IMG/VR virus record: IMGVR_UViG_3300042892_000676
Location: 1-22,353 of that record
From: a virus
Length of the DNA stretch: 22,353 nt
Reading direction: 5' to 3' (one strand)
Shown: in pieces, positions 3,187 to 22,353 of the stretch
Layout: each line of letters begins with the position of its first letter
How positions within the stretch are numbered: position 1 is the stretch's first letter
The notes under the pieces: generated by a model
The model's database searches: none
What the model was told of the DNA's origin: nothing
Seen by the model: only the letters and a program-made list of their open reading frames with translations
Translations under genes and position numbers: made by a program

Positions 3187-4399
3187 TACAGAGTCAAAAC
3201 TTATTACAGCAGTGCTTAAAGATAAGCAGATGCATGTTCTTCTTCAAGCCAATGTTGATAACTTATTAAGAACCCATGGAGATATTTGGGAGTTTATTCG
3301 TTTATATTTTGAGGCTAATGCATCCTTGCCTCCAGCAGAATTAGTTACAGAAAAGTTTAGAGACTTTGAACCAGTAGCAAGCGTAGGAGCAACAAAGCAC
3401 CACCTTGAAGAACTTCAGGGTGAGTATTTAAATGATAGCCTAAAAGATATTCTAAGGTCAGCAGCAACAAATGTTCAAAATAATCAGGGCGTTGTTGCAT
3501 TAAATGATTTAATTACAAAGACATCAGAATTAAAAAAGAATACATCTGCAATTCGTGATATTGATGTTACGGATCTTGAGTCTGCCGTTGCTTACTTTGA
3601 AAATCTAAAAAAGCAACAACTTCTTGGTCATGTTGGTATTAAGACTGGACTGCCAGGGTTTGATAACTACCTTCCTTCAGGAATTATGCCTGGCCAACTT
3701 GGAGTGTTTTTAGCATATCCAGGTATTGGAAAATCTTGGTTAGCATTATACTTTGCAGTTCAAGCATGGAAGCAGGGGAAAAGCCCTCTAGTCATTAGTC
3801 TTGAAATGTCTGAGACAGAAGTTCGTAATCGTGTATTTACAATTATGGGTGAAGGTCGTTGGTCTCATAGAAAATTAAGTAATGGCGAAGTTGAGATGGA
3901 CATGCTAAAAGAATGGCATGAAAAAAATCTTAAAGGCAAGCCAGAATTTCACATCATATCAAATGACCAGGGTGGGGAAATTAACCCCTCCGTTCTTCGT
4001 GGAAAGATTGATCAATACAAACCAGACTTTGTAATCGTTGACTACCTTCAGTTAATGGCTCCTAATCAGAAGTCAGATAATGAAACGGTACGAATGAAGA
4101 ACCTTTCAAGAGAACTCAAACTAATGGCTATTGGAGAAGAAGTTCCTATTATTGCTATTTCTTCTGCTACACCAGATGATGTTAATGATCTATCTTCAGT
4201 CCCGACACTTGGTCAAACTGCATGGTCTAGACAGATTGCTTACGATGCAGACTGGGTGCTTGCTCTTGGCCGTGGGACTAATAGCGATATCATTGAATGC
4301 GCCTTTAGAAAAAACCGTAATGGGTTTATGGGAGATTTCCTAGTTCAATGTGATTTTGACAAGGGATACTATCGATATAAAGATTTTGAAGATAAGTAG
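3179..4399 (+). CDS. dnaB: DnaB-family replicative DNA helicase
   Basis: A 406-residue hexameric-type helicase that would unwind DNA at the phage fork. An N-terminal helical domain (about 1-125) is joined by a linker to a RecA-like C-terminal ATPase. Walker A is AYPGIGKSW at 179-187, the region after it holds VISLEMSETEVRNR (205-218) with the conserved Glu, and Walker B is FVIVDYLQLM at 284-293. The stretch QTAWSRQIAYDADWVLAL (346-363) matches the end-of-motor region of DnaB. Where many DnaB proteins have a Gln-containing SQLSR-type sensor, this one reads ISSATP (327-332). The start is GTG at 3179 with GGAG seven bases upstream. It lies just ahead of the primase and ssDNA-binding genes. Confidence 0.92.
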   Translation: MNNTESKLITAVLKDKQMHVLLQANVDNLLRTHGDIWEFIRLYFEANASLPPAELVTEKFRDFEPVASVGATKHHLEELQGEYLNDSLKDILRSAATNVQNNQGVVALNDLITKTSELKKNTSAIRDIDVTDLESAVAYFENLKKQQLLGHVGIKTGLPGFDNYLPSGIMPGQLGVFLAYPGIGKSWLALYFAVQAWKQGKSPLVISLEMSETEVRNRVFTIMGEGRWSHRKLSNGEVEMDMLKEWHEKNLKGKPEFHIISNDQGGEINPSVLRGKIDQYKPDFVIVDYLQLMAPNQKSDNETVRMKNLSRELKLMAIGEEVPIIAISSATPDDVNDLSSVPTLGQTAWSRQIAYDADWVLALGRGTNSDIIECAFRKNRNGFMGDFLVQCDFDKGYYRYKDFEDK

Positions 4400-4400
4400 T

Positions 4401-4411
4401 TATAATATGAT
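4401..4411 (+). promoter_or_regulatory. -10 box, leaderless start
   Basis: TATAAT at 4401-4406 directly follows the helicase stop codon and ends five bases before the ATG at 4412. This is the same geometry as at 709-714 and 17160-17165. No TG extension and no clear -35 are present. It may start a leaderless transcript for the primase-SSB-polymerase block in addition to read-through from upstream. Confidence 0.5.
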
Positions 4412-4765
4412 ATGTCAGAAAACATGGAGTCTTTACCACCTACGTTCTATCATCATAAACCTATAAAAAAGTTTTATCTTGATGGAGTAATTCATGACGA
4501 CTCTATGATTGGTAGACTTAAAATAGAATATGTAAGATTATTAGTCTCAGAAATGAAACTAAGCGGGTATGTGCCAAGGCTTGACCTTGACCCAGACTTC
4601 ACTATACGATATAATGATAAAAAGAACTTTTACGAATTTGAATTATCAATACAGGCAGTTTACGCAGGGAAAAGGAAAAGCGAATGGATAGCAGGAATAG
4701 ACGGAACGAATCCAATCTTTATACCGCAGACCAAGTTAAAAGAGTCCTTACAGGATCGGGTATAG
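4412..4765 (+). CDS. Small protein between helicase and primase, unknown function
   Basis: A 117-residue protein of mixed helix and strand, without a recognisable motif. Residues 16-50 (IKKFYLDGVIHDD, then RLKIEYVRLLVSEM) suggest a strand followed by an amphipathic helix, and residues 54-88 (VPRLDLDPDFTIRYNDKKNF) suggest strands. The start lacks a ribosome site but lies five bases behind a TATAAT box. Its last 82 bases overlap the primase start in another frame, which argues for tight co-expression. It is sandwiched between helicase and primase, so a replication role is plausible, but nothing in the sequence shows one. Confidence 0.65.
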   Translation: MSENMESLPPTFYHHKPIKKFYLDGVIHDDSMIGRLKIEYVRLLVSEMKLSGYVPRLDLDPDFTIRYNDKKNFYEFELSIQAVYAGKRKSEWIAGIDGTNPIFIPQTKLKESLQDRV

Positions 4766-5628
4766 ATATTGAGTCTGATTTATCAGATAACTATATAGTC
4801 TTTTGTCCATTTCACAACAACCACAGAACCCCAGCAGGAGAAGTACATAAATCAAACGGTTTATTCTTTTGTTTTTCTTGTCAGAAAACAGCAGACCTTC
4901 TTGAACTAATAATGCATACTTCTGGAAGAACCTATTTTGAATCAGCAAGATATATCAAATCAAAAGAAAAATTAAGTAATCTTGTTGATGACATAAATAA
5001 AAGCCTAATAGTTGAAGAAGAGTTTAAACAATTTGACATAGATATATTAAAAAGACTTTATAACAATTTAGTTTTATTAGATAGACCAAAAAATTATTTT
5101 AAATCAAGACACATAGAGATGCAGTCCTGGGCAAAGTTTTCACTTGGCTATTCTGATAAGCAAGATATGGTTACCGTTCCAGTCCATAGCCCAGATGGGA
5201 TTCCAATTGGATTTGTTGGCAGATCTATTGAAGGAAAAGATTTTAAGAATACTCCAGGACTTCCAAAAAGTAAAACATTATTTAACTTGCATAGAGTAAA
5301 AAAGTCTGATAGAGTGTATGTAGTGGAGTCATCATTTGATGCAATAAGGCTTGACCAAGTAGGTCTTCCAGCCGTTGCAACCTTGGGTGCAAACGTATCA
5401 AACATACAAACAGAATTGCTTCAAAAGTATTTCAATAACATTATTGTTATTGCCGATAACGATGAGGCAGGAGGAAACATGAAAGATAGGATAGTTGAAA
5501 AACTTTCTACTCGTGTTTCTGTTATTAAACTAAACAATCAGTATAAAGATATTGGAGATATGTCCGACGAAGAACTTAAGAATTTAGAGTTCCAGTTTGA
5601 CAAATCAATATCTCTTATGCTAAACTAA
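4684..5628 (+). CDS. dnaG: DNA primase (CHC2 zinc finger plus TOPRIM)
   Basis: A 314-residue DnaG-type primase that would synthesise RNA primers at the phage fork. The zinc-binding domain is at 40-68: CPFH (C41, H44), then CFSC (C63, C66), a CHC2-type C-H-C-C finger. The RNA-polymerase core follows, with DMVTVPVHSPDGIPIGFVGR (161-180) and the TOPRIM residues E215 in VVESSFDA and D258/D260 in IADNDEAG. At half the length of bacterial DnaG it lacks the C-terminal helicase-binding domain, so its contact with the phage helicase must differ or use a neighbour. The start ATG has a purine-rich AAAGG-type site upstream and overlaps the preceding gene by 82 bases. Confidence 0.9.
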   Translation: MDSRNRRNESNLYTADQVKRVLTGSGIDIESDLSDNYIVFCPFHNNHRTPAGEVHKSNGLFFCFSCQKTADLLELIMHTSGRTYFESARYIKSKEKLSNLVDDINKSLIVEEEFKQFDIDILKRLYNNLVLLDRPKNYFKSRHIEMQSWAKFSLGYSDKQDMVTVPVHSPDGIPIGFVGRSIEGKDFKNTPGLPKSKTLFNLHRVKKSDRVYVVESSFDAIRLDQVGLPAVATLGANVSNIQTELLQKYFNNIIVIADNDEAGGNMKDRIVEKLSTRVSVIKLNNQYKDIGDMSDEELKNLEFQFDKSISLMLN

Positions 5629-5651
5629 TATAACAAACAAAGGAGAAATAT

Positions 5652-6308
5652 ATGAGCGTAGTAAAGGGACTCAAGAACATTAATGCCCTGCTCGACAAGC
5701 CAAAGTATGAAAACGACGGGCCAAAGTTAAAATGGCTAAAACTCGCTGACGGACAATCAGTTAAGATTCGATTTATCGAAGAACTTGATGAAGACTCAGC
5801 AAACTATAATGAAGGTCGTGGACTAGCACTTGTTGTTAAAGAACACGTAAATCCAAAGGACTACAAGCGTAAGGCTGTAGACACATTGGAATCTGAAGGC
5901 CGTGACTGGGCAGAAGAAATGCATCGTAAAGATCCAAAAGCAGGTTGGCGTGGTCGCCTTCGTTTCTATTGCAACGTATTAGTTGATGATGGAATTGAAG
6001 CACCATATGTTGCAATCTGGTCAATGGGCATCAGCAAGCAATCATCATTCAACACAATTCGTGAGTATGCTCTTGAAACAGGAAGCATCTCAAACGTACT
6101 ATGGAAGTTAAAGCGTAATGGTCAGGGAACTGAAACTAATTACACACTTATTCCAGCAGCACCAGATAAGGAACCATTTGCATGGGGAACAGTTGAACCT
6201 TATCCTCTTGAGTCAGCACTTAAGAAGATTCCTTATGCAGAGCAAGAAGCATACTATTTGGGCTTTGATGGTCCATCTGTAACTTCATCTACCAACGCAG
6301 ATTGGTAA
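5652..6308 (+). CDS. Single-stranded DNA-binding protein candidate
   Basis: A 218-residue protein with a strong ribosome site (AAAGGAG six to seven bases before the ATG), consistent with high expression. Residues 26-45 (KWLKLADGQSVKIRFIEEL) and 104-125 (LRFYCNVLVDDG, then YVAIWSM) resemble strands of the OB-fold in phage gp32/gp2.5-like ssDNA-binding proteins, and the region 84-101 is charged. No acidic C-terminal tail ending in Phe is present; the protein ends STNADW. Its place between primase and polymerase is where phages commonly keep their SSB. There is no catalytic motif. The call rests on strand pattern, expression signal and context rather than a diagnostic motif. Confidence 0.65.
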   Translation: MSVVKGLKNINALLDKPKYENDGPKLKWLKLADGQSVKIRFIEELDEDSANYNEGRGLALVVKEHVNPKDYKRKAVDTLESEGRDWAEEMHRKDPKAGWRGRLRFYCNVLVDDGIEAPYVAIWSMGISKQSSFNTIREYALETGSISNVLWKLKRNGQGTETNYTLIPAAPDKEPFAWGTVEPYPLESALKKIPYAEQEAYYLGFDGPSVTSSTNADW

Positions 6309-6309
6309 T

Positions 6310-9300
6310 ATGAATTACGTAGGCTTACATGTCCATACCCATTTTAGTTTATTTGATGGGATTGCTACTCCAGAAGAATACGTGAACCGTGCAGTTGAGT
6401 TAGGGATGCCAGCAATTGCCATCACTGACCACGGTACTTTATCTGGGCATAGGGAACTGCACCGTATTGCAAAAGCAAATGGCATTAAGCCAATTCTAGG
6501 TCTAGAAGGATACATGTGTGCAGACATATCTGATACAAGAGATAAGTCTGAAAGAGAAGGTCAGCAAGATCTTGTCTACAACCACATTATCCTTCTAGCC
6601 AAGAATCAAATTGGTTTAGAAAACCTTAACAAGATTAGTGAACTATCTTGGACAGATGGTTTCTTTAAGAAGCCAAGATTTGATTTTACTATTTTGGAAA
6701 AGTATAAAGAAGGAATTATTGTTACTTCTGCTTGTCCAAGTAGTGTGCTTGTAAAAGCATTAGAAGAAGAAGAGTTTGCTCTTGCCAAGAAGTATATATC
6801 TTGGTTCAAGGAACGCTTTAAAGATGACTACTATATTGAAGTCATGCCTCACAATGATGCACAGATTAACAAATATTTAATTGAACTTGCAGATGAGTTT
6901 GGAATCAAGGTTGTTGTAACACCAGACTGCCACCATGTTGATCCATCACAAAAAGAAGTGCAAGAGTTTAAGTTGCTTATGAACACACACGGTAAGTTTG
7001 TAAAAGATGCAACATATGAGAAGTCAAAGAAAAAAGGCAGCATGATGGAACGCCTTGACTATCTTTATGGCGAAGACCGTCAGATTACATTTAATAAGTT
7101 TGATATTCACCTGCTCTCATATGAAGAGATTAAAGCAGCGATGGAATCGCAGGGGATTGATAGACCTGACATATACTCAAACACAATCCTATTAGCAGAG
7201 ACAGTAGGAGACTATGGAATTCAAGAAGGATTAGACTTGCTACCAGTACAGTACAAGGGTCCTGATAAAGAACTTGCAAAGGCTGCATTAGAAGGTTTGG
7301 TAGAAAGAGGTTTGTCAGAAAACCAAGAGTATCTTGACAGACTTGAAGAAGAGTTAAAGATTATTAAGGATAAAAAGTTTGCTCCATATTTCCTTGTTGT
7401 AAGTAACATGATCAACTGGGCAAAGAAGGAAGAGATTATGGTTGGCCCAGGTCGTGGTTCTTCTGCTGGTTCTCTTGTCTGTTATGCATTAAAGATTACA
7501 GACATTGATCCTATTGAGCACAATCTTTTGTTTTTCCGTTTTATTAATCCAGAACGTAATGACTTCCCAGATATTGATACAGATATTCAGGATACTCGTC
7601 GTGAAGAAGTTAAAGACTATCTTGTTAGACAGTATCGACATGTTGCATCTATTGCTACCTTCCTTGAGTTTACTGGCAAGGGAATTGTTAGAGATGTTTC
7701 ACGAGTATTAAATATTCCTTTATCAGATGTTAATAAGGTTTTAAAAACTGTAGACTCCTGGGATGATTTCTGCACATCAAAATCAACATATGAATTTCGT
7801 CAAAAGTATCCAGAAGTAGAAGTCTATGGAGAACAACTTCGTGGTCGCATTCGTGGTACAGGTATTCACGCAGCAGGCGTAGTAACAAGCAAAGAGCCAA
7901 TCTTTAGATACGCACCACTTGAAACAAGATCGTCTACTGGTTCTGATGAAAGAATTCCTGTAGTTGGTGTTGATATGGAAGAGGCTGAAAGAATTGGTTT
8001 AATTAAAATTGATGCTTTAGGTCTTAAAACTTTGTCTGTTCTTAAAAATACAATTGACATAATTAAAGAGCGAGATGGAAAAAAGATTGACCTTCTTAAG
8101 ATTAAGATGGACGATGCAAATGTTTATCAGATGCTTTCTGATGGATACACAAAAGGAGTCTTCCAATGTGAAGCAGCACCATACACAAACCTTCTTGTTA
8201 AGATGGGAGTTAAGAACCTAAATGAACTAGCAGCGTCTAATGCTCTTGTTCGTCCAGGTGCAATGAATACTATTGGAAAAGACTATGTTGATCGTAAGCA
8301 TGGTCGTCAAAATATATCTTATACACACCAAGTATTAAAAGAATTTACGGAGGACACTTATGGTTGTATTCTTTACCAAGAACAAGTTATGCAAGCATGC
8401 GTACACCTTGGCGGTATGTCCATGTCGGAAGCAGATAAAGTTAGAAAGATCATTGGAAAGAAAAAAGATGCTAAAGAATTTGATCAGTTTAAAGAGAAGT
8501 TCGTAGAGGGTGCATCAAAGTTTATCTCTCCTAACCTTGCTCGTGATTTATGGCATGACTTTGAGGCTCACGCAGGGTACTCATTTAACAAGTCTCACGC
8601 AGTAGCATACTCAACGCTATCCTATTGGACAGCATGGCTAAAGTATTATTACCCACTTGAGTTTATGTACTCAGTGCTAAAAAATGAAAAGGACAAAGAT
8701 GCAAGAACTGAATACCTTATTGAAGCAAAAAGAATGGGCATTAGCGTTAAGTTACCTCACATTAACGATTCGGATATTGATTTTAAGATTGAGGGTAAAG
8801 GCATTCGGTTTGGACTCAGTGCTATCAAGTTCATATCTGACAAAATTGGTGAAAGATACATATCTGCACGACCATTCAATTCGTACAAAGAACTTGAGGA
8901 ATTTACATTTACCAAAGGAAATGGAGTAAACAGTCGTGCACTCCAAGCACTAAGAGCAATAGGCGCAGCAACCTTTAATGATAATCCTAGAAATGATCAG
9001 GAGATTAAAGAGAACCTATATGAATACTTAAACCTTCCAGAGTTTAATATTACTATTCCTTCTCATTACTATGCATTTATTCAGGACATTGTTGACTTTG
9101 AAGAAAAAGGATCATACATTTTTATGGGTATGGTAAAATCAATTAAGCGAGGAACAGGATGGTCACGAGTTGAAGTTTTGGACAAAACTGGCAGTGTCGG
9201 TATATTTGACGATGAAAATACGATTATTGAGACAGGTCGTTCTTATCTGCTTTTGTGTAATGACAACAGGATTGTTTCTTTCATACCTTCAGATGAAATA

Positions 9301-13578: not shown

Positions 13579-14104
13579 AGAAGATCTAGTTAAGCACCTT
13601 GATCAAGTAAATCAAGTTGTAGAAGAATACCTAAAAGGCAATGACCCAACTGTAATATCAAAACAACTTGCAATACCAAGACAAAGAGTTGTGACATTAA
13701 TTAACGAATGGAAAGTCATGGCATCTGCTAATGATGCTATTCGTGCCCGTGCTAAAGAGGCACTTGCTGCTGCAGACACACATTACAGTAAGTTGGTTTC
13801 TCGTACATACGAAGTTATTGATGAAGCATCCATGACTAATAACCTTAGCGCAAAGACTGCTGCAATTAAACTTGTAATGGATATTGAGTCTAAGCGTATT
13901 GATATGCTACAAAAGGCTGGTCTTCTTGAGAACAAAGAACTTGCAGAAGAAATGATGGAGATTGAGCGACGCCAAGAGGTTCTTGTTTTAATATTAAAAG
14001 ATATTGCATCTGAGTATCCACAGGTTCGTGATGAGATAATGCGTAGACTTTCTTCGTTTGCAAAAGACAACGAGGTGATTACGGTTGTCCACGACATTCA
14101 ATGA
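13568..14104 (+). CDS. Terminase small subunit candidate
   Basis: A 178-residue, almost wholly helical protein immediately upstream of terL. Residues 18-50 (VEEYLKGNDPTVISKQLAIP, then QRVVTLINEW) form an HTH suited to recognising packaging DNA. The centre (52-125) is a long helical oligomerisation region (ARAKEALAAADTHYSKLV, SKRIDMLQKAG), and the C-terminal part (126-178) is helical and charged. This domain order, the length and the 20-base overlap with terL match small terminase subunits. GGGAG lies seven bases before the ATG. The sequence is not diagnostic by itself; the call leans on position. Confidence 0.7.
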   Translation: MSTEEDLVKHLDQVNQVVEEYLKGNDPTVISKQLAIPRQRVVTLINEWKVMASANDAIRARAKEALAAADTHYSKLVSRTYEVIDEASMTNNLSAKTAAIKLVMDIESKRIDMLQKAGLLENKELAEEMMEIERRQEVLVLILKDIASEYPQVRDEIMRRLSSFAKDNEVITVVHDIQ

Positions 14105-15881
14105 TTTTCTTGAAGTGCTTAAAGATAACCATTTTCAAGAGACACCTGTAAATGCAAGAACATTTGTTGAGGGCGAAAAATACTTAGGTCAGCCTCCACT
14201 TTCTGATATTCAGTACGATATTGTAGAAGCAATGAGTCAGATATATCGCAAAGAAGATCTCATTGATATAATGGGAGAAGAAGAAGGCATAAGATACTTT
14301 GATAAATATACTAAGAATGAGATTATTCTGCAACTTGGCAAGGGATCTGGTAAAGACTTTGTATCTACAGTATCGTGTGCATATATTGTATATAAACTAT
14401 TATGTTTAAAAGACCCAGCAAAGTATTTTGGTAAGCCGTCAGGAGATGCCATTGACTTAATCAATGTGGCTATTAACGCACAGCAGGCTAAGAATGTTTT
14501 CTTTAAAGGTTTTAAATCAAAGATTGAAAAATCCCCATGGTTTGCTGGAAAGTATTATGCAAAAGCAGACTCAGTTGAGTTTGATAAGTCTATAACTGTT
14601 TACTCTGGACACTCAGAAAGAGAATCCCATGAGGGGTTAAACCTTCTTCTTGCAGTTCTTGATGAGATCTCTGGATTTGCATCTGAAGTTGGAACAGGTA
14701 ACGAACAAGGAAAAACTGCTGAGAATATCTACAAGGCTTTCCGTGGATCAGTAGACTCTCGTTTCCCAGACCTTGGCAAAGTTGTTTTGCTTTCATTCCC
14801 AAGATACCCAGGAGACTATATCTCAGAGAAATACGACGCAGTTGTTGCTGAGAAAGAAGTAATTGAAAGAACACACGAGTTTATTATTAATCCACTGCTA
14901 CCTGATACAGACCCAAACAATAAGTTTGAAATTTCCTGGGATGAAGACCACATCATCTCATACAAATACCCAGGAGTCTTTGCACTAAAAAGACCTACAT
15001 GGGAAGTAAACCCAACAAGACAGATTGATGATTTTAAGATTGCTTTTATGACTGACCTTGGAGATGCAATGATGCGCTTTACATGCGTACCAACTTTTGC
15101 TTCTGATGCATTCTTTAAGCAGCACGAAAAGGTTAGATCTTGTATGACACTTAGAAACCCTGTAGATAACTTTAGAAGGTTTGATGAAGCATTTAAACCA
15201 GATCCAACTAAGAAATATTATGTACACGCTGACCTTGCCCAGAAGCACGATAAGTGTGCTGTTGCTATTGCACATGTAGAAAAATGGGTAAACATACAAG
15301 TCATTAATAACTATGAACAAGTAGCACCAATTGTAGTAGTAGATGCAGTAGCATGGTGGGAACCAAAGATTGAAGGCCCAGTTAATCTTTCAGAAGTTAA
15401 ACAATGGATTCAGAACCTTAGAAGAATAGGGTTTGATATTGGAATGGTTTCCTTTGACCGTTGGCAATCATTTGATATTCAAAATGAACTAAAGCAAGTA
15501 GGAATGAATACTGATACTGTTTCTGTTGCTAAAAAACATTATGAAGATATGGCTATGCTTGTATACGAGGAAAGACTTGCTATGCCTGCAATTGATTTAT
15601 TATTTGATGAACTAACACAATTAAAGATTATGAAAAATGACAGAGTTGACCACCCCCGCAAAAAGTCAAAGGACTTGGCTGATGCTGTGTGTGGAGCAAT
15701 ATTTGGGGCAATATCACATACTCCAAAAAATATAGACACTGAAGTAGAGGTTCACACCTTTAAAGACAGACCAAAGACTCCAGAAGAGCAATTTGACCTG
15801 GATAGTCGCAATGTGATACAATATAAACCTAGCCAAATAAAAGACATCGAAGATTATTTGGATGGACTAAAAACACTATAA
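14085..15881 (+). CDS. terL: Terminase large subunit (packaging ATPase-nuclease)
   Basis: A 598-residue motor that pumps DNA into the prohead and cuts the concatemer. The ATPase domain has Walker A QLGKGSGKD (83-91), Walker B LLLAVLDEISGF (187-198) with catalytic E194, and a coupling-type segment KVVLLSFPRYPGDY (232-245). The RNase H-like nuclease domain carries D382 in YVHADLAQKHD, D458 in MVSFDRWQS, and D530/D533 in KDLADAV. The start is TTG 14085, since a stop codon lies nine bases upstream in frame and the next Met is at residue 50; GAGG at 14072-14075 provides the ribosome site. It is followed not by a portal gene but by a secreted-protein gene. Confidence 0.93.
   Translation: MSTTFNDFLEVLKDNHFQETPVNARTFVEGEKYLGQPPLSDIQYDIVEAMSQIYRKEDLIDIMGEEEGIRYFDKYTKNEIILQLGKGSGKDFVSTVSCAYIVYKLLCLKDPAKYFGKPSGDAIDLINVAINAQQAKNVFFKGFKSKIEKSPWFAGKYYAKADSVEFDKSITVYSGHSERESHEGLNLLLAVLDEISGFASEVGTGNEQGKTAENIYKAFRGSVDSRFPDLGKVVLLSFPRYPGDYISEKYDAVVAEKEVIERTHEFIINPLLPDTDPNNKFEISWDEDHIISYKYPGVFALKRPTWEVNPTRQIDDFKIAFMTDLGDAMMRFTCVPTFASDAFFKQHEKVRSCMTLRNPVDNFRRFDEAFKPDPTKKYYVHADLAQKHDKCAVAIAHVEKWVNIQVINNYEQVAPIVVVDAVAWWEPKIEGPVNLSEVKQWIQNLRRIGFDIGMVSFDRWQSFDIQNELKQVGMNTDTVSVAKKHYEDMAMLVYEERLAMPAIDLLFDELTQLKIMKNDRVDHPRKKSKDLADAVCGAIFGAISHTPKNIDTEVEVHTFKDRPKTPEEQFDLDSRNVIQYKPSQIKDIEDYLDGLKTL
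15793..15822 (+). promoter_or_regulatory. Sigma70-type promoter inside the end of terL
   Basis: TTGACC at 15793-15798 and TACAAT at 15817-15822 are separated by 18 bases; each hexamer matches the consensus at five of six positions. It is the best paired -35/-10 combination noticed in the window. Transcripts would start near 15829, giving a leader of about 70 bases for the secreted-protein gene at 15902. Confidence 0.5.
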
Positions 15882-15901: not shown

Positions 15902-17080
15902 ATGAACTCATTTAAGAAAATCGCCCTAGCCATGGTTGCAGCCATGACTCTGGGCACAATCGTGGCAACGCCTGCAAACGCTGCTGTAATGACAGTCGCA
16001 GTAACTCTTGGAGCAAGTAACACAGATAAGTCATCTGCTTCAGCAATTGCTACGCCTGCTTCATTGCCAGTACCTGCAGACAACACAATTGACGTTGCTG
16101 ACGCACTAAAGTTTGTCGCAACAGTTGACACAGGAACAGTAGTTTCTGTAGTAGCAACAAATGCAACAATCGTGTCTGCACTACACACAACTGCTGCACC
16201 AGTAGGAGCAACATCAGGATCTTCATCTTTGACAGTTGCAACTGGTACAGGAACAACAGCAACTTTTTATGTCTACACAAAGACAACAGCAATTGGTACA
16301 GTTGTAATCACCAACGGTGGAACAACTCTTACTTACTACGTACAGGGTACTGCTGGTTTAATTAATAACCTAACAGTTTCTGCTCCAGTATCTGGTGCTG
16401 CTGGAACAAAGCAAGATATTTTAGTTACAGCAACAGACGTATTTGGCAACAAGGTGTCTGCACCAACTACTGGTACGTCAATTACTGCAACAGTATTTGC
16501 TGCAACAGCAACACTTGCTTCAGCAACAGCAACAACTGGTATTACACTTTCAGATTTTGGAGTTGCAAAGTTTACTGCAACGCTTCCAACAACTGGTACA
16601 CGAGCACTAATCATGTTTGCTCCAACAACTGCTGGCGAAGCAACAACTGCTGATGTAGTTGGTTTAACTGCTCGCACACTAGCACCTTTTGCAGAAATTA
16701 CAGTTCGTGATCTAGTATCAGAACTTGCTGCCGAAAAGTCTGCTAAGGATGCTGCACTTGCTGCTAAGGCAATTTCAGATGCTGCAGTCGTAAAGGCTGC
16801 TTCAGATGCTGTTGCTGCTAAGGCTGCTTCAGATGCTGCTCTTGCAGCAGAGAAGGCTGCTTCTGTAAAGGCACTTGCTGATGCAAAGGCTGTTTCAGAT
16901 AAGGCTGCACTTGATGCAAAGACTGCTTCAGATGCAGTTGTTCTTGCTAAGGATGCAACAATTGCTAAGTTAACAGCAGATAATGCTGCTGCACTTAAGG
17001 CAATTAAGACTGCTTTCAATGCACTTGCAAAGAAGTGGAATGCAAAGAATCCAAAGGCAAAGGTTACTTACATTAAGTAA
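15902..17080 (+). CDS. Secreted Ala/Thr-rich beta plus coiled-coil protein
   Basis: A 392-residue protein with a textbook Sec signal peptide: a basic start (MNSFKK), a hydrophobic core, and a signal peptidase site after ATPANA at residue 27. Residues 30-270 are Thr/Ala/Val-rich beta strands, probably two Ig-like domains (the second near NNLTVSAPVSGAAGTKQDIL, 174-193). Residues 270-365 are an Ala-rich coiled coil with repeated SDAA/ASDA units, and the end is basic (KKWNAKNPKAKVTYIK). Base composition is clearly more GC-rich and codon use more uniform (GCA, GCT, ACA) than in neighbouring genes, suggesting high expression or a different origin. A promoter lies upstream, AAAGGA before the ATG, and a strong terminator after. 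It could coat the host cell or the virion; no enzyme motif is seen. Confidence 0.75.
   Translation: MNSFKKIALAMVAAMTLGTIVATPANAAVMTVAVTLGASNTDKSSASAIATPASLPVPADNTIDVADALKFVATVDTGTVVSVVATNATIVSALHTTAAPVGATSGSSSLTVATGTGTTATFYVYTKTTAIGTVVITNGGTTLTYYVQGTAGLINNLTVSAPVSGAAGTKQDILVTATDVFGNKVSAPTTGTSITATVFAATATLASATATTGITLSDFGVAKFTATLPTTGTRALIMFAPTTAGEATTADVVGLTARTLAPFAEITVRDLVSELAAEKSAKDAALAAKAISDAAVVKAASDAVAAKAASDAALAAEKAASVKALADAKAVSDKAALDAKTASDAVVLAKDATIAKLTADNAAALKAIKTAFNALAKKWNAKNPKAKVTYIK
16736..16965 (+). repeat. Degenerate repeats coding for the Ala-rich coiled coil
   Basis: Short recurring units built on AAGGCTGCTTCAGATGCTG (exact at 16793-16811 and 16820-16838) encode K-A-A-S-D-A-type residues of the coiled coil. 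The units are irregularly spaced and stay in frame. They look like within-gene expansion and not a mobile or CRISPR repeat. Confidence 0.6.
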
Positions 17081-17095
17081 TTAGTCCAACAATTG

Positions 17096-17127
17096 GGGGG
17101 ATTGGCTTAACGCTAGTCCCCCTTTTT
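17096..17127 (+). terminator. Rho-independent terminator
   Basis: An 11-bp stem (17096-17106 paired with 17112-17122, including two G-U pairs) closes a TTAAC loop and is followed by TTTTT at 17123-17127. It stands 16 bases after the stop of the secreted-protein gene and isolates that gene's transcription from the AT-rich operon downstream. Confidence 0.9.
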
Positions 17128-17171: not shown

Positions 17172-17261
17172 ATGGCAATAAAATATTTTGTGTATAAAGT
17201 TATATTTAAAATAAAAAATATTTTTAAGAAAAATAAAAATAAGAATAGGTTCATATACTAA
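17172..17261 (+). CDS. 29-residue cationic leader peptide or small protein
   Basis: The frame runs from ATG 17172 to TAA 17259-17261. It encodes 29 residues: a short hydrophobic/aromatic start (MAIKYFVYKVIFKIKNIF) and a Lys/Asn-rich tail (KKNKNKNRFIY), giving an amphipathic, strongly cationic peptide that could lie on a membrane. It lies six bases behind an extended -10 box and its stop overlaps the start of the SGNH gene (TAATG), so it is either a real microprotein or a translated leader that couples ribosomes to the next gene. In such AT-rich DNA a chance frame is possible, but the double coincidence of promoter and stop-start overlap favours translation. Confidence 0.45.
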   Translation: MAIKYFVYKVIFKIKNIFKKNKNKNRFIY

Positions 17262-18256
17262 TGAACCCTCTATTGGCAATGATTGATGGTTATGAAACCG
17301 ATGAAGACTATTCAATGGCTAGTAAAAGATATAGAAATCTACTTTTAAAAAATACTCTTACAAGATATATAAATATAAACACAACGAGATTTGGACAAAA
17401 CAGGATAGACAATATCTTGGTAGATCCAAAAACAGAATATTCTATAAATAATTTTGGATATAGAGATGTTGACTGGATTGAAAAAGCAGAAATACTTGCA
17501 GTTGGTTGTTCAAATACCTGGGGCTATGGAGTTCCTGTAGATGGAAGATGGACAAATATTTTAGGTGAAAGAATTAATAAAGAAATTCGAAACCTATCAT
17601 TTCCTGGAGGGTCCATAAATGACTTAGTGGCTAAATCATTTGAATATTTTAAAATATTTGGTAACCCAGAAATTATGTTATGTTTGTTTCCAGATCCTTT
17701 TAGATTACGTCTACCAATTAAAAAAAATATAACTAAAGAGTTTAGACTTAATAAAGAAGATAGTAAGAATAATCTATCTATCCCTGATTTAACTTTTGGA
17801 GATATACAACTTGATGTTCATCCAGAACCAATTTCACAAAGAAATAAATATATTAAAAGACCTTATACTTATAGAGAGATATTGCCATTAGAGGTTCCGC
17901 TATTTTTTTCTATGCAAGCAATACACTTATTAGAGCAATACTGCAGATCAAACAATATAAAACTTATCTGGTCATCTTGGCATGTTGATACAGTAAATGC
18001 TTTAACTAATGATAAAGAAAATATATTTAGTGATGTTGTTTTTAATAAAGATTTAGTTATTGGTCATTATTTAAATAATATAAATGAATTAGAAAATAAA
18101 GAATTTGATGAAGACTGTCATAAAGAATATGAAAATTATTTTAAACACTGTTTTCATATTGGTGGTGATGTTGAAGATGGACTTGACCAGGCACACCCAG
18201 GAGTTCATAAACATATTCATATTGCAGAAGGATTTTATCAGGAAATGAATAAATGA
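17261..18256 (+). CDS. SGNH/GDSL hydrolase-like protein (first copy)
   Basis: A 331-residue protein with the block order of SGNH esterases/acyltransferases. Block I is LAVGCSNTWGYG (79-90), with Ser84 as candidate nucleophile. Block II is NLSFPGGSIND (111-121). Block V is DQAHPG (309-314), with D309 and H312 in the D-x-x-H arrangement. Residues 1-70 form a mixed lead region. There is no signal peptide, so it acts inside the cell. Such enzymes remove or add acyl groups on sugars or lipids. It is coupled to the peptide upstream (TAATG) and overlaps the carbamoyltransferase start (ATGA), implying they work together. It is much more AT-rich than the replication genes. It is only distantly similar to the third gene of the cassette, with which it shares the block I pattern. 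Confidence 0.7.
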   Translation: MNPLLAMIDGYETDEDYSMASKRYRNLLLKNTLTRYININTTRFGQNRIDNILVDPKTEYSINNFGYRDVDWIEKAEILAVGCSNTWGYGVPVDGRWTNILGERINKEIRNLSFPGGSINDLVAKSFEYFKIFGNPEIMLCLFPDPFRLRLPIKKNITKEFRLNKEDSKNNLSIPDLTFGDIQLDVHPEPISQRNKYIKRPYTYREILPLEVPLFFSMQAIHLLEQYCRSNNIKLIWSSWHVDTVNALTNDKENIFSDVVFNKDLVIGHYLNNINELENKEFDEDCHKEYENYFKHCFHIGGDVEDGLDQAHPGVHKHIHIAEGFYQEMNK

Positions 18257-19674
18257 TAATTTTAGGAATTAACGAAACTTCCCACGACGCATCTGTATCT
18301 TTAATTAAAGATGGAGAAATACTTTTTGCGGGACATGCAGAAAGATATAGTAAACAAAAGAATGATTGGTATAACAACAAAGATATTATCTTAGATGCAT
18401 TAAACTATGGAACACCAGACTACATTGCTTACTATGAGAAGCCTTGGCTTAAAAGATCTAGAATAATGTTAAAGGGTGGCGCAGCAGACTGGAAGCCAAA
18501 CATTCCTTTAGATGTTCCAGTACACTACTTTAAGCATCACTACTCTCATGCAGCAGCAGGATACTACACAAGCGCATTTAACGATGCTGTAATTGTTGTA
18601 TTAGATGCAATAGGAGAATATAACACTTCAACTATTTGGGTTGGTGAGGGCGACAAGATTAAACTTAAGTATAAGCAAAACTATCCAGTTAGTTTTGGAC
18701 TATTTTATTCTGCTTTTACACAACTTATTGGACTTATGCCAAACCAAGAAGAATACATTATGATGGGAATGGCTGCCTATGGTGACTGGAAGCGTTACTA
18801 CAAAGAGGTTGATGAATATTTTCCTTCATACGATAAACAAAAATATAATTTTCATAAAGGAATTAATGACTGGGGAATGATAATTACAGAGCAAGATAGG
18901 TTTGATATTGCTGCAGCAGTACAAGTAGTGTATGAGCAAAGATTAAATCAGTTTATGCGTATGGCAAAGTCCCTTACTGGTAAAAAGAACTTAGTATTTA
19001 TGGGTGGTTGTGCCCTTAACTCTTCAGCAAATACATTGCTATGGAATATTTTTGATATGATTTGGATCATGCCTAACCCAGGAGATGCTGGTAGTTCTTT
19101 AGGTGCAGCAGCAGCCTTGTACGGAAAGCACCTTGACTGGAAGACTCCGTATCTTGGCTATGATCTTGGAGGAGAGTATCCTGTTCAGCAAATTGTGGAC
19201 GGTATATTAAAAGATGGAATCGTAGCAGTAGCAACAGGCAGAGCAGAATACGGTCCAAGAGCATTGGGCAATCGAAGCATTCTTGCTGACCCAAGAGATC
19301 CAAATATAAAAGATAAAGTTAATTTAATTAAACAAAGAGAGTTGTTTAGACCATTTGCTCCAGTAGTTATGGAAGAGTGTGCGTCTAAGTGGTTTGATAT
19401 GGATTTTGCAAGCCCTTATATGCAATATACAGTTAAGTGTCTTCAGCCAGATAAAATACCATCTGTAGTTCATGCTGATGGAACCTCAAGAGTTCAAACT
19501 GTAAATAAAGATCAACATCGTGGGTTATGGAGAGTTCTTAATAAGTTTTATATTGAAACTGGTGTTCCAATACTATTAAATACAAGCCTTAATATTAAAG
19601 GACAGCCACTACTAAATGATGAAAATGATATAGAAAAATGGCAAAAAACTTATAACAATTTAGTGATAAGATAG
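18253..19674 (+). CDS. NodU/TobZ-type O-carbamoyltransferase
   Basis: A 473-residue enzyme predicted to move a carbamoyl group from carbamoyl phosphate, through carbamoyl-adenylate, to a hydroxyl of a sugar or other metabolite. The N-terminal Kae1-like domain shows GINETSHDAS (5-14), KHHYSHAAAGYYTSAF (94-109) with metal-binding His residues, D118 in VLDAIGE, and MGGCALN (250-256). The C-terminal YrdC-like part has GPRALGNRS (334-342), FRPFAP (365-370), HADGTSRVQ (407-415) and LLNTSLNIKGQP (441-452). All landmark motifs are present, although the protein is shorter than many family members (about 550-600). Its base composition is nearer the phage core than its two AT-rich SGNH neighbours. ATGA overlap with the upstream gene shows tight co-expression. 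Confidence 0.9.
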   Translation: MIILGINETSHDASVSLIKDGEILFAGHAERYSKQKNDWYNNKDIILDALNYGTPDYIAYYEKPWLKRSRIMLKGGAADWKPNIPLDVPVHYFKHHYSHAAAGYYTSAFNDAVIVVLDAIGEYNTSTIWVGEGDKIKLKYKQNYPVSFGLFYSAFTQLIGLMPNQEEYIMMGMAAYGDWKRYYKEVDEYFPSYDKQKYNFHKGINDWGMIITEQDRFDIAAAVQVVYEQRLNQFMRMAKSLTGKKNLVFMGGCALNSSANTLLWNIFDMIWIMPNPGDAGSSLGAAAALYGKHLDWKTPYLGYDLGGEYPVQQIVDGILKDGIVAVATGRAEYGPRALGNRSILADPRDPNIKDKVNLIKQRELFRPFAPVVMEECASKWFDMDFASPYMQYTVKCLQPDKIPSVVHADGTSRVQTVNKDQHRGLWRVLNKFYIETGVPILLNTSLNIKGQPLLNDENDIEKWQKTYNNLVIR

Positions 19675-19678
19675 TTTG

Positions 19679-20518
19679 ATGATTAATAAAAAATCAAACT
19701 TAAAAACAATTCCAGATATTTTTGTAAATAGGTCTTTAGAAGAAATGAGTCAGCATGCTATGCCTAAAACAGAAGCAGACTCTGTTTTTATTGAATATAA
19801 ACTAAACTCTCAAGGATATAGGTGCAATGAGTTTAGCAATCAAGAAATTTTAACTTTGGGATGTTCTCAAACAGAGGGACATGGAATGCCTATAGAACTT
19901 ACATGGCCTTATCTAATATCACAAAAAATGAATAAGGATTATATTAATTTAGCAAAAGGAGGAGAAGGAATACAAGCACAAATAGTTAAAGCATTTCAGT
20001 TTTTTAAAGAATTTTATCATCCAAAATATATATTTGCAGTATTTCCAATAACAAGGCTGGAAGTTCCTTTGATAAACCTTAGAGTAAAAAATGAAGGTAA
20101 TCATGAACGTGTAAAGTCTAGAGAAAATATAGGCAAAGCCATGCTATCTAACAAATTACTTGAAAAATTTTCTAAAGAACCACATATAGTAGAAAATATT
20201 TTGCCAGAAGAATTTGCAATTTTTTATAATATGTTATTTTTAAAAATGTTTATTCAGTATTGCAAATCAAATAATATAATATTATTGTGGACCTACTGGA
20301 ACGATTCGTCTTTAGAGCAATACTCATTTAAAGATTTTACAGATACATATTTTGAGACTAGTTCGCCAGAAAATAATTGTCACTTAGAGTTTTCAGATAA
20401 TAAATTTTTTGAGTACGCAGCAGACTATGAGTATTGGCATCCTGGTCATTGGGCATTTCACCAACAAATGCATATGGCAAATTCAATATATAGTACACTT
20501 TTTAAACAAACAGAATGA
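19679..20518 (+). CDS. SGNH/GDSL hydrolase-like protein (second copy)
   Basis: A 279-residue protein; the start is taken at ATG 19679, with the TTG directly before it (19676) as an alternative. Block I is LTLGCSQTEGHGMP (58-71) with candidate nucleophile Ser63, block II is NLAKGGEG (90-97), and block V is YWHPGHWAFHQQMH (252-265) with His254. The Asp usually three residues before the catalytic His is not in place; D249 lies five residues before it, so activity may be altered. The core order (GCSxT, N-L-x-x-G-G, C-terminal HPG) matches the gene at 17261, showing an SGNH pair around the carbamoyltransferase. It starts within five bases of the carbamoyltransferase stop, has a weak ribosome site and is very AT-rich. 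Confidence 0.65.
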   Translation: MINKKSNLKTIPDIFVNRSLEEMSQHAMPKTEADSVFIEYKLNSQGYRCNEFSNQEILTLGCSQTEGHGMPIELTWPYLISQKMNKDYINLAKGGEGIQAQIVKAFQFFKEFYHPKYIFAVFPITRLEVPLINLRVKNEGNHERVKSRENIGKAMLSNKLLEKFSKEPHIVENILPEEFAIFYNMLFLKMFIQYCKSNNIILLWTYWNDSSLEQYSFKDFTDTYFETSSPENNCHLEFSDNKFFEYAADYEYWHPGHWAFHQQMHMANSIYSTLFKQTE

Positions 20519-20565
20519 TATAAGTGACTGGGAAAGACCTATAACTTTAAAATGCAGTAATAAAA

Positions 20566-20574
20566 TGGTATAAT
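20566..20574 (+). promoter_or_regulatory. Extended -10 promoter for the large secreted protein
   Basis: TGGTATAAT at 20566-20574 is identical to the element at 706-714. The predicted transcription start is near 20581, giving a leader of about 30 bases. The -35 position carries only a weak TTTAAA. The element sits in the 93-base gap after the SGNH gene. Confidence 0.6.
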
Positions 20575-20611: not shown

Positions 20612-22353
20612 ATCAAAAAACTAATACGAATAGCAGCAGCCACATTATTAGCATTTGGCTGGCTTCTTATTTCCCCAGAAGGTGCCCACTCTGATGATCC
20701 CCTCACAGTAGCAGCCCAAGAAATACAAGACCTTAACGATAGCATTGACGACCTTGGCTACAAGGATGAGTTCATATTTTTAATTGAAGAGGCAGAAGAT
20801 AAGTATGCCCTTGCAGTATCTGCAAAAGAAACCCAGACCCAAACCTCTACCACATATGATGCATCTCTTGTCTTAAAAGCCACGGCGGGAGAAGAAAAAG
20901 CATCAGCCCAAACAGCCGTAGACGAACAAACAGTAGTAGTGGCAACTGCATTAGAAGATAAGAATGATGCACAAGATGCTCTTGATATAGCCAATATAAA
21001 CCTTTCAACCCAGTCTGGCTCAATGACTGATATCACAACAGAAGATTTTAATAATAATAGTATAAATAATGGTAGACAAAATTGGCCAGCAGGTGCTCTT
21101 AGTATATTTATAGTTGGATCAATAGACTCAAATGGAAACTCTGTTGGCACTGAGGTTGCAATAACTTCAACAAATAATGGTGGATATTTTTATGGAAGCG
21201 ACCAGGTTCCAAGTAATGATTATACAAACCCACCAGCGTTGCATCTTCAAGCCCCAAGTCAAACACTTGCTTTTCGTGTTGCCAATTGGAGTGAGGGAGC
21301 AGTTACTCAGGTTAAATTTTCCGTTTATGCAAAAAATGGAGATGCCACTGCTATGGTCAGGCATACAGATGGAACAACATATAATTTTACAATTCAAAAC
21401 AATGTTAATTCAGATTATCCAGGATTTGTCCATCAAGAGGTTTTAGATGCGCTTCCTGGTAAACAAATTCATGAGATATATTTTTGGGCAGACAACAATG
21501 ACTGGTACATTATTGATAATGTAATTATAAAAACTATTATAGGAAGTGTTCCAAGCCAAGAATCAAGTGCGGCGGTTGCCTCAGCACAGGCTGTATATAA
21601 TGATAAATTAAATATTTACAACCAAGCAGTTTCAACATTAAATGCTTACAATCAAACCTTAACTAATAAAACAACTGAGGCTGAGAATGCAAGTTTAAAT
21701 GTTGTAACGGCATTACAAAATAAAAATAATGCTATTAGTGCATACGATCAAGCAATTAATAATGTTAATAGTGCAATTGATGATGCATGGCGTTGCTATG
21801 ACGAGCAACTACAAAGAGAAATTCAATCTGCTATTGCCCAAGCAGCAGCCAACGCTGCAGCAAATCAACCCACCCCAGAGCCAAGTCCTGAACCAACTGC
21901 TGAAGAGCCACCTACTCCTGAGCCAAGTCCAGAACCTACTGCTGAGGAACCATCAACTCCAGAACCAAGTCCTGAGCCTACGGCAGAAGAGCCTCCTACG
22001 CCAGAGCCTTCTCCAGAGCCTACAGTGGACCCTACAGAGGAGCCTACACCTGAGCCTACCCCAGAGGAACCACCAACACCTGAGCCTTCTCCAGAACCAA
22101 CTACAGAAACAACTGAAGAGCCTGCTCCAGAACCTTCACCAGAACCTGGCCCAGAGCCAAAGCCAGAAGAGAACCCTTGGACTGAACCAGATGTAGTAAT
22201 TGAAGATGAGGTATTAGCAGCCCTTGTTCCTGAAAAAGGAACTGGAACAGAAGAAGATCTATCTAATGTTATTGCTAACCTTACAAGCAGTGATAATAAG
22301 TTAGTTACTCTTTCCCCTGAACAAGTAACAGCAGTTAGCCAAACACTTAGAGC
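20612..22353 (+). CDS. Large secreted coiled-coil/Pro-Glu-rich protein, 3' end outside the window
   Basis: The frame is open from about 20612 to the window edge (580 codons and counting). No ATG, GTG or TTG lies in frame near the start. The best initiation point is ATC 20612, just after GGGGGAAGG, which gives a clean signal peptide (KKLIRIAAATLLAFGWLLIS, then GAHS). Next come a coiled coil rich in Ala, Glu and Lys (about 30-135), a beta-sandwich-like domain (about 150-312, with Trp/Asn-rich strands such as EIYFWADNNDWYIIDNVI), a second coiled coil (about 315-418), Pro/Glu repeats (420-521) and a further domain cut by the window. The layout resembles surface-anchored or fibrous proteins. Either ATC initiation or one sequence error (ATG to ATC) explains the start. 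Function unknown; surface display is inferred. Confidence 0.7.
   Translation, partial: MKKLIRIAAATLLAFGWLLISPEGAHSDDPLTVAAQEIQDLNDSIDDLGYKDEFIFLIEEAEDKYALAVSAKETQTQTSTTYDASLVLKATAGEEKASAQTAVDEQTVVVATALEDKNDAQDALDIANINLSTQSGSMTDITTEDFNNNSINNGRQNWPAGALSIFIVGSIDSNGNSVGTEVAITSTNNGGYFYGSDQVPSNDYTNPPALHLQAPSQTLAFRVANWSEGAVTQVKFSVYAKNGDATAMVRHTDGTTYNFTIQNNVNSDYPGFVHQEVLDALPGKQIHEIYFWADNNDWYIIDNVIIKTIIGSVPSQESSAAVASAQAVYNDKLNIYNQAVSTLNAYNQTLTNKTTEAENASLNVVTALQNKNNAISAYDQAINNVNSAIDDAWRCYDEQLQREIQSAIAQAAANAAANQPTPEPSPEPTAEEPPTPEPSPEPTAEEPSTPEPSPEPTAEEPPTPEPSPEPTVDPTEEPTPEPTPEEPPTPEPSPEPTTETTEEPAPEPSPEPGPEPKPEENPWTEPDVVIEDEVLAALVPEKGTGTEEDLSNVIANLTSSDNKLVTLSPEQVTAVSQTLR
21869..22176 (+). repeat. In-frame Pro/Glu-rich tandem repeats (42-base unit)
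   Basis: Three full 14-codon units (PTPEPSPEPTAEEP and close variants) start at 21869, 21911 and 21953, followed by shorter degenerate units to about 22176. Silent differences between units show they are not a recent exact expansion. The encoded segment is expected to be an extended, rigid, acidic spacer, as in wall-spanning or stalk regions of surface proteins. Confidence 0.85.

Follow-up and report, generated by a model that had tools for sequence, protein, structure and literature searches.

What would a phage gain from a carbamoyltransferase gene set between two genes for SGNH-type proteins, and do the three genes belong together at all? The question is raised by the IMG/VR virus record IMGVR_UViG_3300042892_000676, which was analysed over its whole length of 22,353 bp (hereafter the window). 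Its open reading frames (ORFs) for SGNH1, a NodU/TobZ-type O-carbamoyltransferase (CT) and SGNH2 all lie on the same strand, at 17261-20518. An initial annotation, made from the sequence alone, had read them as one cassette with an ATGA overlap at the first junction and a four-base gap at the second. This interpretation is partly supported by the present analysis: the module is real, recurring beyond chance, and nothing indicates that its second SGNH copy is dead.

The ORF coordinates agree with the proposed layout. SGNH1 and CT share the ATGA at 18253-18256, and SGNH2 follows CT after 4 nt if it starts at the ATG at 19679, or after 1 nt if it starts at an alternative TTG at 19676, which would extend it to 280 aa. 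The ATG is the likelier start because relatives most often have a downstream gap of 4 nt. SGNH/CT junctions in these relatives are -4 overlaps or short gaps, as is typical of coupled genes.

The SGNH-CT pairing recurs from both search directions

Starting from CT, we found a same-strand SGNH gene no more than 1.5 kb away in 43 of 56 distinct CT loci. Five of the 13 SGNH-less loci are contigs that are cut off, and in seven of the other eight a 2-oxoglutarate (2OG) oxygenase or a c24 gene lies beside CT; c24, which takes this place in four SGNH-less loci, has the look of a 2OG oxygenase by eye (HxH...R) and is recognised by no library. Starting from SGNH, with no selection on CT, a same-strand CT stood within 200 bp in 29 of 43 distinct loci (a total that leaves out one bacterial locus lacking an SGNH). 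Recurrence from both directions rules out chance neighbours. The complete SGNH-CT-SGNH triplet, far from being found only once, is present at nine distinct phage loci (the window, L013, L061, L106, L100/L155, L102, L115, L124 and L171), and five more IMG/VR records are near-identical to it across the cassette, with at most one mismatch in 3258 nt. Among 20 large phage records, 19 carry exactly one CT, and all 20 carry between one and eight SGNH copies.

These are uncultured freshwater phages, probably with actinobacterial hosts, since WhiB, an actinobacterial marker, occurs in 18 of the 20 large records; among 14 control genomes it matched only Corynebacterium. The association reaches beyond this freshwater group: in the unannotated single-cell record of Marine virus AG-345-D19 (L178, MH319727.1), the CT gene (5871-7208; product 41% identical to the window CT) directly follows two SGNH-like genes, at 3906-4583 and 4762-5640. 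No CT in the 50,697 phage records searched exceeds 41% identity to the window CT; tblastn with SGNH1 and SGNH2 against these records returned no matches, and the whole SGNH alignment held no conserved stretch with which a collection scan could be seeded. CT genes are scattered in marine and freshwater phages, and a coupled SGNH partner offers a handle on their target.

Other genes were seen next to CT as well. A 2OG oxygenase adjoins it in 14 of the 56 loci (the unrecognised oxygenase-like cluster included), a sulfotransferase-like gene abuts it in L064 and L076, and an NTP-transferase-like gene does so at a single locus. Besides, a cyanophage CT sits among heptose and nucleotide-sugar genes.

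CT has the domains and motifs of an O-carbamoyltransferase

The middle protein had been called a complete NodU/TobZ-like carbamoyltransferase, and its domains and motifs bear this out. CT matches Carbam_trans_N (PF02543; 1e-34, 120 bits, cut-off 24) and Carbam_trans_C (PF16861; 5e-53, 180 bits, cut-off 27), that is, an N-terminal Kae1-like and a C-terminal YrdC-like domain, as well as phrog_1601 (Nol-like carbamoyltransferase, 2e-104). The blocks HHYSHA, LDAIGEYNT, GCALNSS, PGDAGSSLGAA, GPRALGNRSI, FRPFAPVV and LLNTSLN are intact, and alignments with a solved NovN-type enzyme and with 14 phage members confirmed the family blocks HHxxHA, GDAGSS, GPRALGNRS, FRPFAP and NTSxN. The nearest solved relatives are NovN-type enzymes, GdmN and TobZ. 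CT resembles NodU, TobZ, GdmN and NovN in both domains, in the aligned blocks and, by homology, in a cytoplasmic chemistry of ATP and carbamoyl phosphate, so that it would be expected to move a carbamoyl group to a hydroxyl. Unlike them, it belongs to a phage subfamily (at least 577 viral contigs) accompanied by SGNH genes, and it is shorter than the solved NodU/TobZ-type chains (473 versus 576-702 aa).

Both flanking proteins look like SGNH enzymes with an altered active site

SGNH1 and SGNH2 are paralogues (28% identity, E 9e-32), and the libraries gave no individual assignment for either. A profile of 60 SGNH relatives matches solved GDSL/TesA chains across the Ser block (1e-4), and six family members weakly match the TesA equivalog model. 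When AlphaFold2 models (predicted local distance difference test, pLDDT, 92.8 for SGNH2 and 76.2 for SGNH1) were compared with Foldseek, GDSL/TesA-type enzymes took all the top places for both (lowest E 3e-5), with the crocagin hydrolase CgnD ranking third for SGNH1 (E 1.5e-4). Both proteins are therefore modelled as SGNH folds, as first annotated; overall template modelling (TM) scores are modest, and the assignment is based on Foldseek probability and the motif pattern.

The nucleophile blocks GCSNTWG and GCSQTEG are present, as is HPG in both proteins. The role given to the second HPG did not hold up, since nearly all close homologues have Pro in place of H254 of SGNH2, and the conserved His is H257 in GHW. 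With this His, Ser63, Asp249 and His257 of SGNH2 align with Ser84, Asp303 and His312 of SGNH1, and the Asp-His spacing is seven residues in the former and eight in the latter. The earlier suggestion that SGNH2 may have a displaced Asp and only bind is contradicted by these alignments: among 72 distinct family members, all 72 keep the Ser, and the block V Asp and the His are each kept in 71, which rules out SGNH2 as a pseudo-enzyme. That the triad is kept although many SGNHs are just 20-30% identical to the window copies argues that these proteins are under selection as enzymes.

The family shares with TesA and other SGNH/GDSL hydrolases the GxSxT Ser block, the block II Gly (69/72) and the C-terminal Asp/His. 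It departs from them in block III, where the oxyanion Asn is absent from 62 of the 72 members and at no fixed place in the other ten; instead there is FP..R, with an Arg invariant in 72/72. Further differences are an invariant Cys (72/72), an N-terminal extension and an Asp-His spacing that is often 7-8 residues. Canonical DxxH spacing was present in 24 of the 70 members scored, and the two main modes are 2 and 7-8 residues.

A constant carbamoyltransferase with variable partners

When 97 SGNHs were placed on a tree, copies labelled upstream grouped together, as did those labelled downstream (16 and 15 label changes versus shuffled means of 27.1 and 22.3; 0/500 shuffles as low). The clade of the window SGNH1 has eight members, of which the CT-adjacent ones are all upstream, and that of SGNH2 has thirteen, of which the CT-adjacent ones are all downstream. 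Judging from the tree, SGNH1 and SGNH2 belong to old, mostly position-specific paralogue clades. Such separate clades fit two different roles, and the upstream and downstream copies are probably functionally distinct. A recent tandem duplication of the flanking genes is ruled out because the two copies belong to different clades and each has relatives of its own at other loci.

CT behaves differently. It is 74-89% identical to the window copy in phages whose large terminase is just 51-58% identical, many of which came from the SGNH-first set and were not picked for CT identity. Within the SGNH1 and SGNH2 clades, median SGNH identity is 48% (CT 85%) and 62% (CT 81%), respectively. Because CT identity exceeds that of both terminase and SGNHs, CT would seem to be the constant part of the module and the fast-diverging SGNHs its variable part. 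Conservation above the terminase suggests strong selection on CT or its frequent transfer in phages of freshwater bacteria. Both kinds of enzyme are known, yet the open-licence literature searched yielded no standing pairing of this kind, of one constant CT and variable SGNH paralogues, and the freshwater-actinophage literature searched does not mention the SGNH-CT pair.

What the cassette may do

We propose, giving it an even chance, that the cassette is a cytoplasmic tailoring ("moron") module: CT would attach a carbamoyl group to a hydroxyl, most likely of a glycan, and the SGNHs would serve as hydrolases or transferases specific to that acceptor. Cytoplasmic action is inferred because inspection revealed no signal peptide in SGNH1 or SGNH2. 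By homology, CT would use carbamoyl phosphate and ATP to form a carbamoyl-adenylate and then pass the carbamoyl group to the hydroxyl. The SGNHs, as catalytically competent serine hydrolases or transferases, might fit the module to a particular acceptor: in the simplest view, an upstream-type SGNH would remove an acyl group and thereby free the hydroxyl, and a downstream-type SGNH would trim or transfer after carbamoylation. The glycan could be a precursor of the host cell surface, whose modification would block superinfection or hide receptors; alternatively, it could be a sugar carried by the fibre proteins of the phage itself. Variable SGNHs would then track a changing acceptor while CT stays constant.

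Several observations weigh against this proposal. There is no glycosyltransferase or sugar-nucleotide gene inside the cassette; the GlcNAc (N-acetylglucosamine)-transferase family PF11397 was detected in only 10 of the 20 large records, and NTP_transf_3 in 0/20, which excludes the latter as a general partner. A host genome with an SGNH-CT pair was not found in the one scan made, whose only two peptide patterns led to one 30%-identical CT. Since the oxyanion Asn is missing family-wide, hydrolase or ordinary esterase activity cannot be assumed. Finally, the acceptor may be a peptide or a small molecule.

A more far-reaching version of the tailoring module builds on the unusual active site of the SGNHs, with its missing oxyanion Asn and its invariant Arg and Cys. 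Here, exchangeable SGNHs would act as carbamoyl- or acyl-transferases, or as acceptor-docking enzymes, that point the near-invariant CT of diverged actinophages at new targets, whether glycans or fibre glycoproteins. Carbamoylation would then be a surface code that evolves rapidly in the conflict between phage and host. We regard this as a speculative and unlikely extension.

By analogy, the sharing of pathways by GDSL/SGNH proteins and carbamoyltransferases in the crocagin and saxitoxin clusters may keep two other explanations alive. In the crocagin cluster, CgnC is a 2OG dioxygenase, CgnD a hydrolase and CgnI a carbamoyltransferase (PMC10070186), and the phage loci likewise combine a 2OG oxygenase, an SGNH-like hydrolase and a carbamoyltransferase. 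If these acted in sequence as CgnC, CgnD and CgnI do, the cassette would modify a peptide or small molecule. The third-best structural match of SGNH1 being CgnD, from a cluster with both partner enzymes (PMC10070186), points this way, as do 2OG oxygenases in 20/20 records and beside CT in a quarter of the loci (14/56). On the other hand, CgnD gives low overall TM-scores (0.32-0.40), which TesA and other GDSL enzymes equal. Moreover, crocagin is made by a ribosomal peptide pathway with a precursor peptide and the peptide-binding proteins CgnB/CgnE, whereas neither the cassette nor the phage loci showed a precursor-peptide gene, although no search dedicated to one was made. Taken together, we think this explanation unlikely.

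In cyanobacterial saxitoxin producers, one gene cluster encodes both the carbamoyltransferase SxtI and the GDSL-type protein SxtL, for which decarbamoylation has been proposed, not proven. With sxtI-sxtJ-sxtK-sxtL as the closest known arrangement, in which a GDSL-type gene and a carbamoyltransferase gene share a cluster as in the phage cassette, and with the SGNH triads conserved, CT might add a carbamoyl group that the adjacent SGNH takes off. The sxt genes differ in forming a bacterial small-molecule pathway with one GDSL gene, and their carbamoyltransferase is not flanked by paralogues. If writer and eraser were both produced during a lytic infection, each would undo the work of the other, and neither the 1-8 SGNHs per single CT nor the position-specific clades would be explained, which makes this idea quite unlikely.

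In another explanation, the phage could hydroxylate its own fibre proteins and add GlcNAc, a sugar that the cassette would then carbamoylate. NodU acts on GlcNAc, and PF11397 includes the hydroxyproline GlcNAc-transferase of Skp1. In an 88.6-kb relative, a strand-consistent run of genes comprises fibre-like genes, a PF11397 GlcNAc-transferase and an overlapping pair of which one is a confirmed 2OG oxygenase. The cassette, however, lies far from the fibre genes of this relative and adjoins terminase and lysis genes instead, and half of the large records lack PF11397 (10/20 with it), so that we hold this route decidedly unlikely.

Very improbable, lastly, is a conversion of 5-hydroxymethylcytosine (5hmC) in DNA to 5-carbamoyloxymethylcytosine. 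The MetaGPA study did show it for phage carbamoyltransferases with the same Pfam domains as CT (PMC8670742), and a Tet_JBP match below threshold was seen in a 2OG oxygenase downstream. The MetaGPA pathway, however, needs a dCMP hydroxymethylase, and PF00303 (thymidylate synthase/dCMP hydroxymethylase) matched none of the 20 large SGNH-bearing records, of which 19 carry CT and many exceed 110 kb; control genomes were positive, although the records may be incomplete. The result disfavours this route, even if an oxygenase path to 5hmC is conceivable, and the SGNH partners would have no role in it. The SGNH partnership itself sets these CTs apart from the 5hmC-DNA branch.

Genomic setting

Coordinates of the cassette and its surroundings are given in Table 1. 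Cassette neighbourhoods vary among the phages, lying by terminase, by endolysin or Hsp20-like genes, or by secreted-protein genes, as expected of a moron module. In the window, the hairpin behind the upstream gene suggests that the cassette probably begins a transcription unit of its own; terminator-like hairpins in the region do not outnumber those in shuffles, so position is the sole argument and suggestive only. Promoter-like hits are likewise no more numerous than in shuffles, and the one listed is suggestive only.

Table 1. Features of the window in and around the SGNH-CT-SGNH cassette
Feature	Coordinates	Strand	Description
Terminase-like gene	14085-15881		Called by recognition and context; Pfam scan without match
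Upstream neighbour	15902-17080	+	Signal-peptide-like N-terminus; outside the cassette
Terminator-like hairpin	17095-17123	+	12-pair stem, then TTTTTG; after the upstream secreted-protein gene
SGNH1	17261-18256	+	331 aa; upstream paralogue clade, predicted SGNH/GDSL fold; Ser84, Gly116, Arg148, Cys228, Asp303, His312
CT	18253-19674	+	473 aa; NodU/TobZ-type O-carbamoyltransferase by homology; sequence blocks intact
SGNH2	19679-20518	+	279 aa from ATG; downstream paralogue clade; Ser63, Gly95, Arg126, Cys195, Asp249, His257
Promoter-like site	20546-20574	+	TTTAAA-17-TATAAT with TG; between the cassette and the next secreted-protein gene
Downstream neighbour	20612-22353	+	Signal-peptide-like start, Pro/Glu-rich stalk; runs off the window; outside the cassette

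The upstream neighbour has no Pfam match, and its cluster, c44, was found again near the cassette in other loci. In the downstream frame there is no ATG, GTG or TTG between the upstream stop (20561) and the signal-like start; the ATC at 20612 is preceded by a strong GGGGGAAGG, and homologues of this secreted-protein frame have TTG there. Elsewhere, the window encodes replication proteins (a DnaB-type helicase, a primase-like protein, a single-stranded DNA-binding protein (SSB), PolIII alpha and UvsX/RecA) and, at 1889-2521, a weak sulfotransferase-like gene (PF03567 below cut-off, phrog_3347).

Further observations concern the related large records (G001-G020). An HslV/proteasome-like peptidase gene (phrog_1040; L184:3249-3842, G003, downstream of the window) lies near an endolysin-like gene of the same phage. 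Each record holds 1-13 2OG-Fe(II) oxygenases, several of them arrayed among tail genes (G001, L181:12887-19444). On the minus strand of the same G001, a run at L182:10485-17014 (G001:C1:70485-77014) contains fibre-like genes, one with collagen repeats (PF01391), together with two overlapping genes, one being a confirmed 2OG oxygenase (PF13640), and a PF11397 GlcNAc-transferase; it is possibly a cytoplasmic hydroxyproline-glycosylation pathway for phage fibres.

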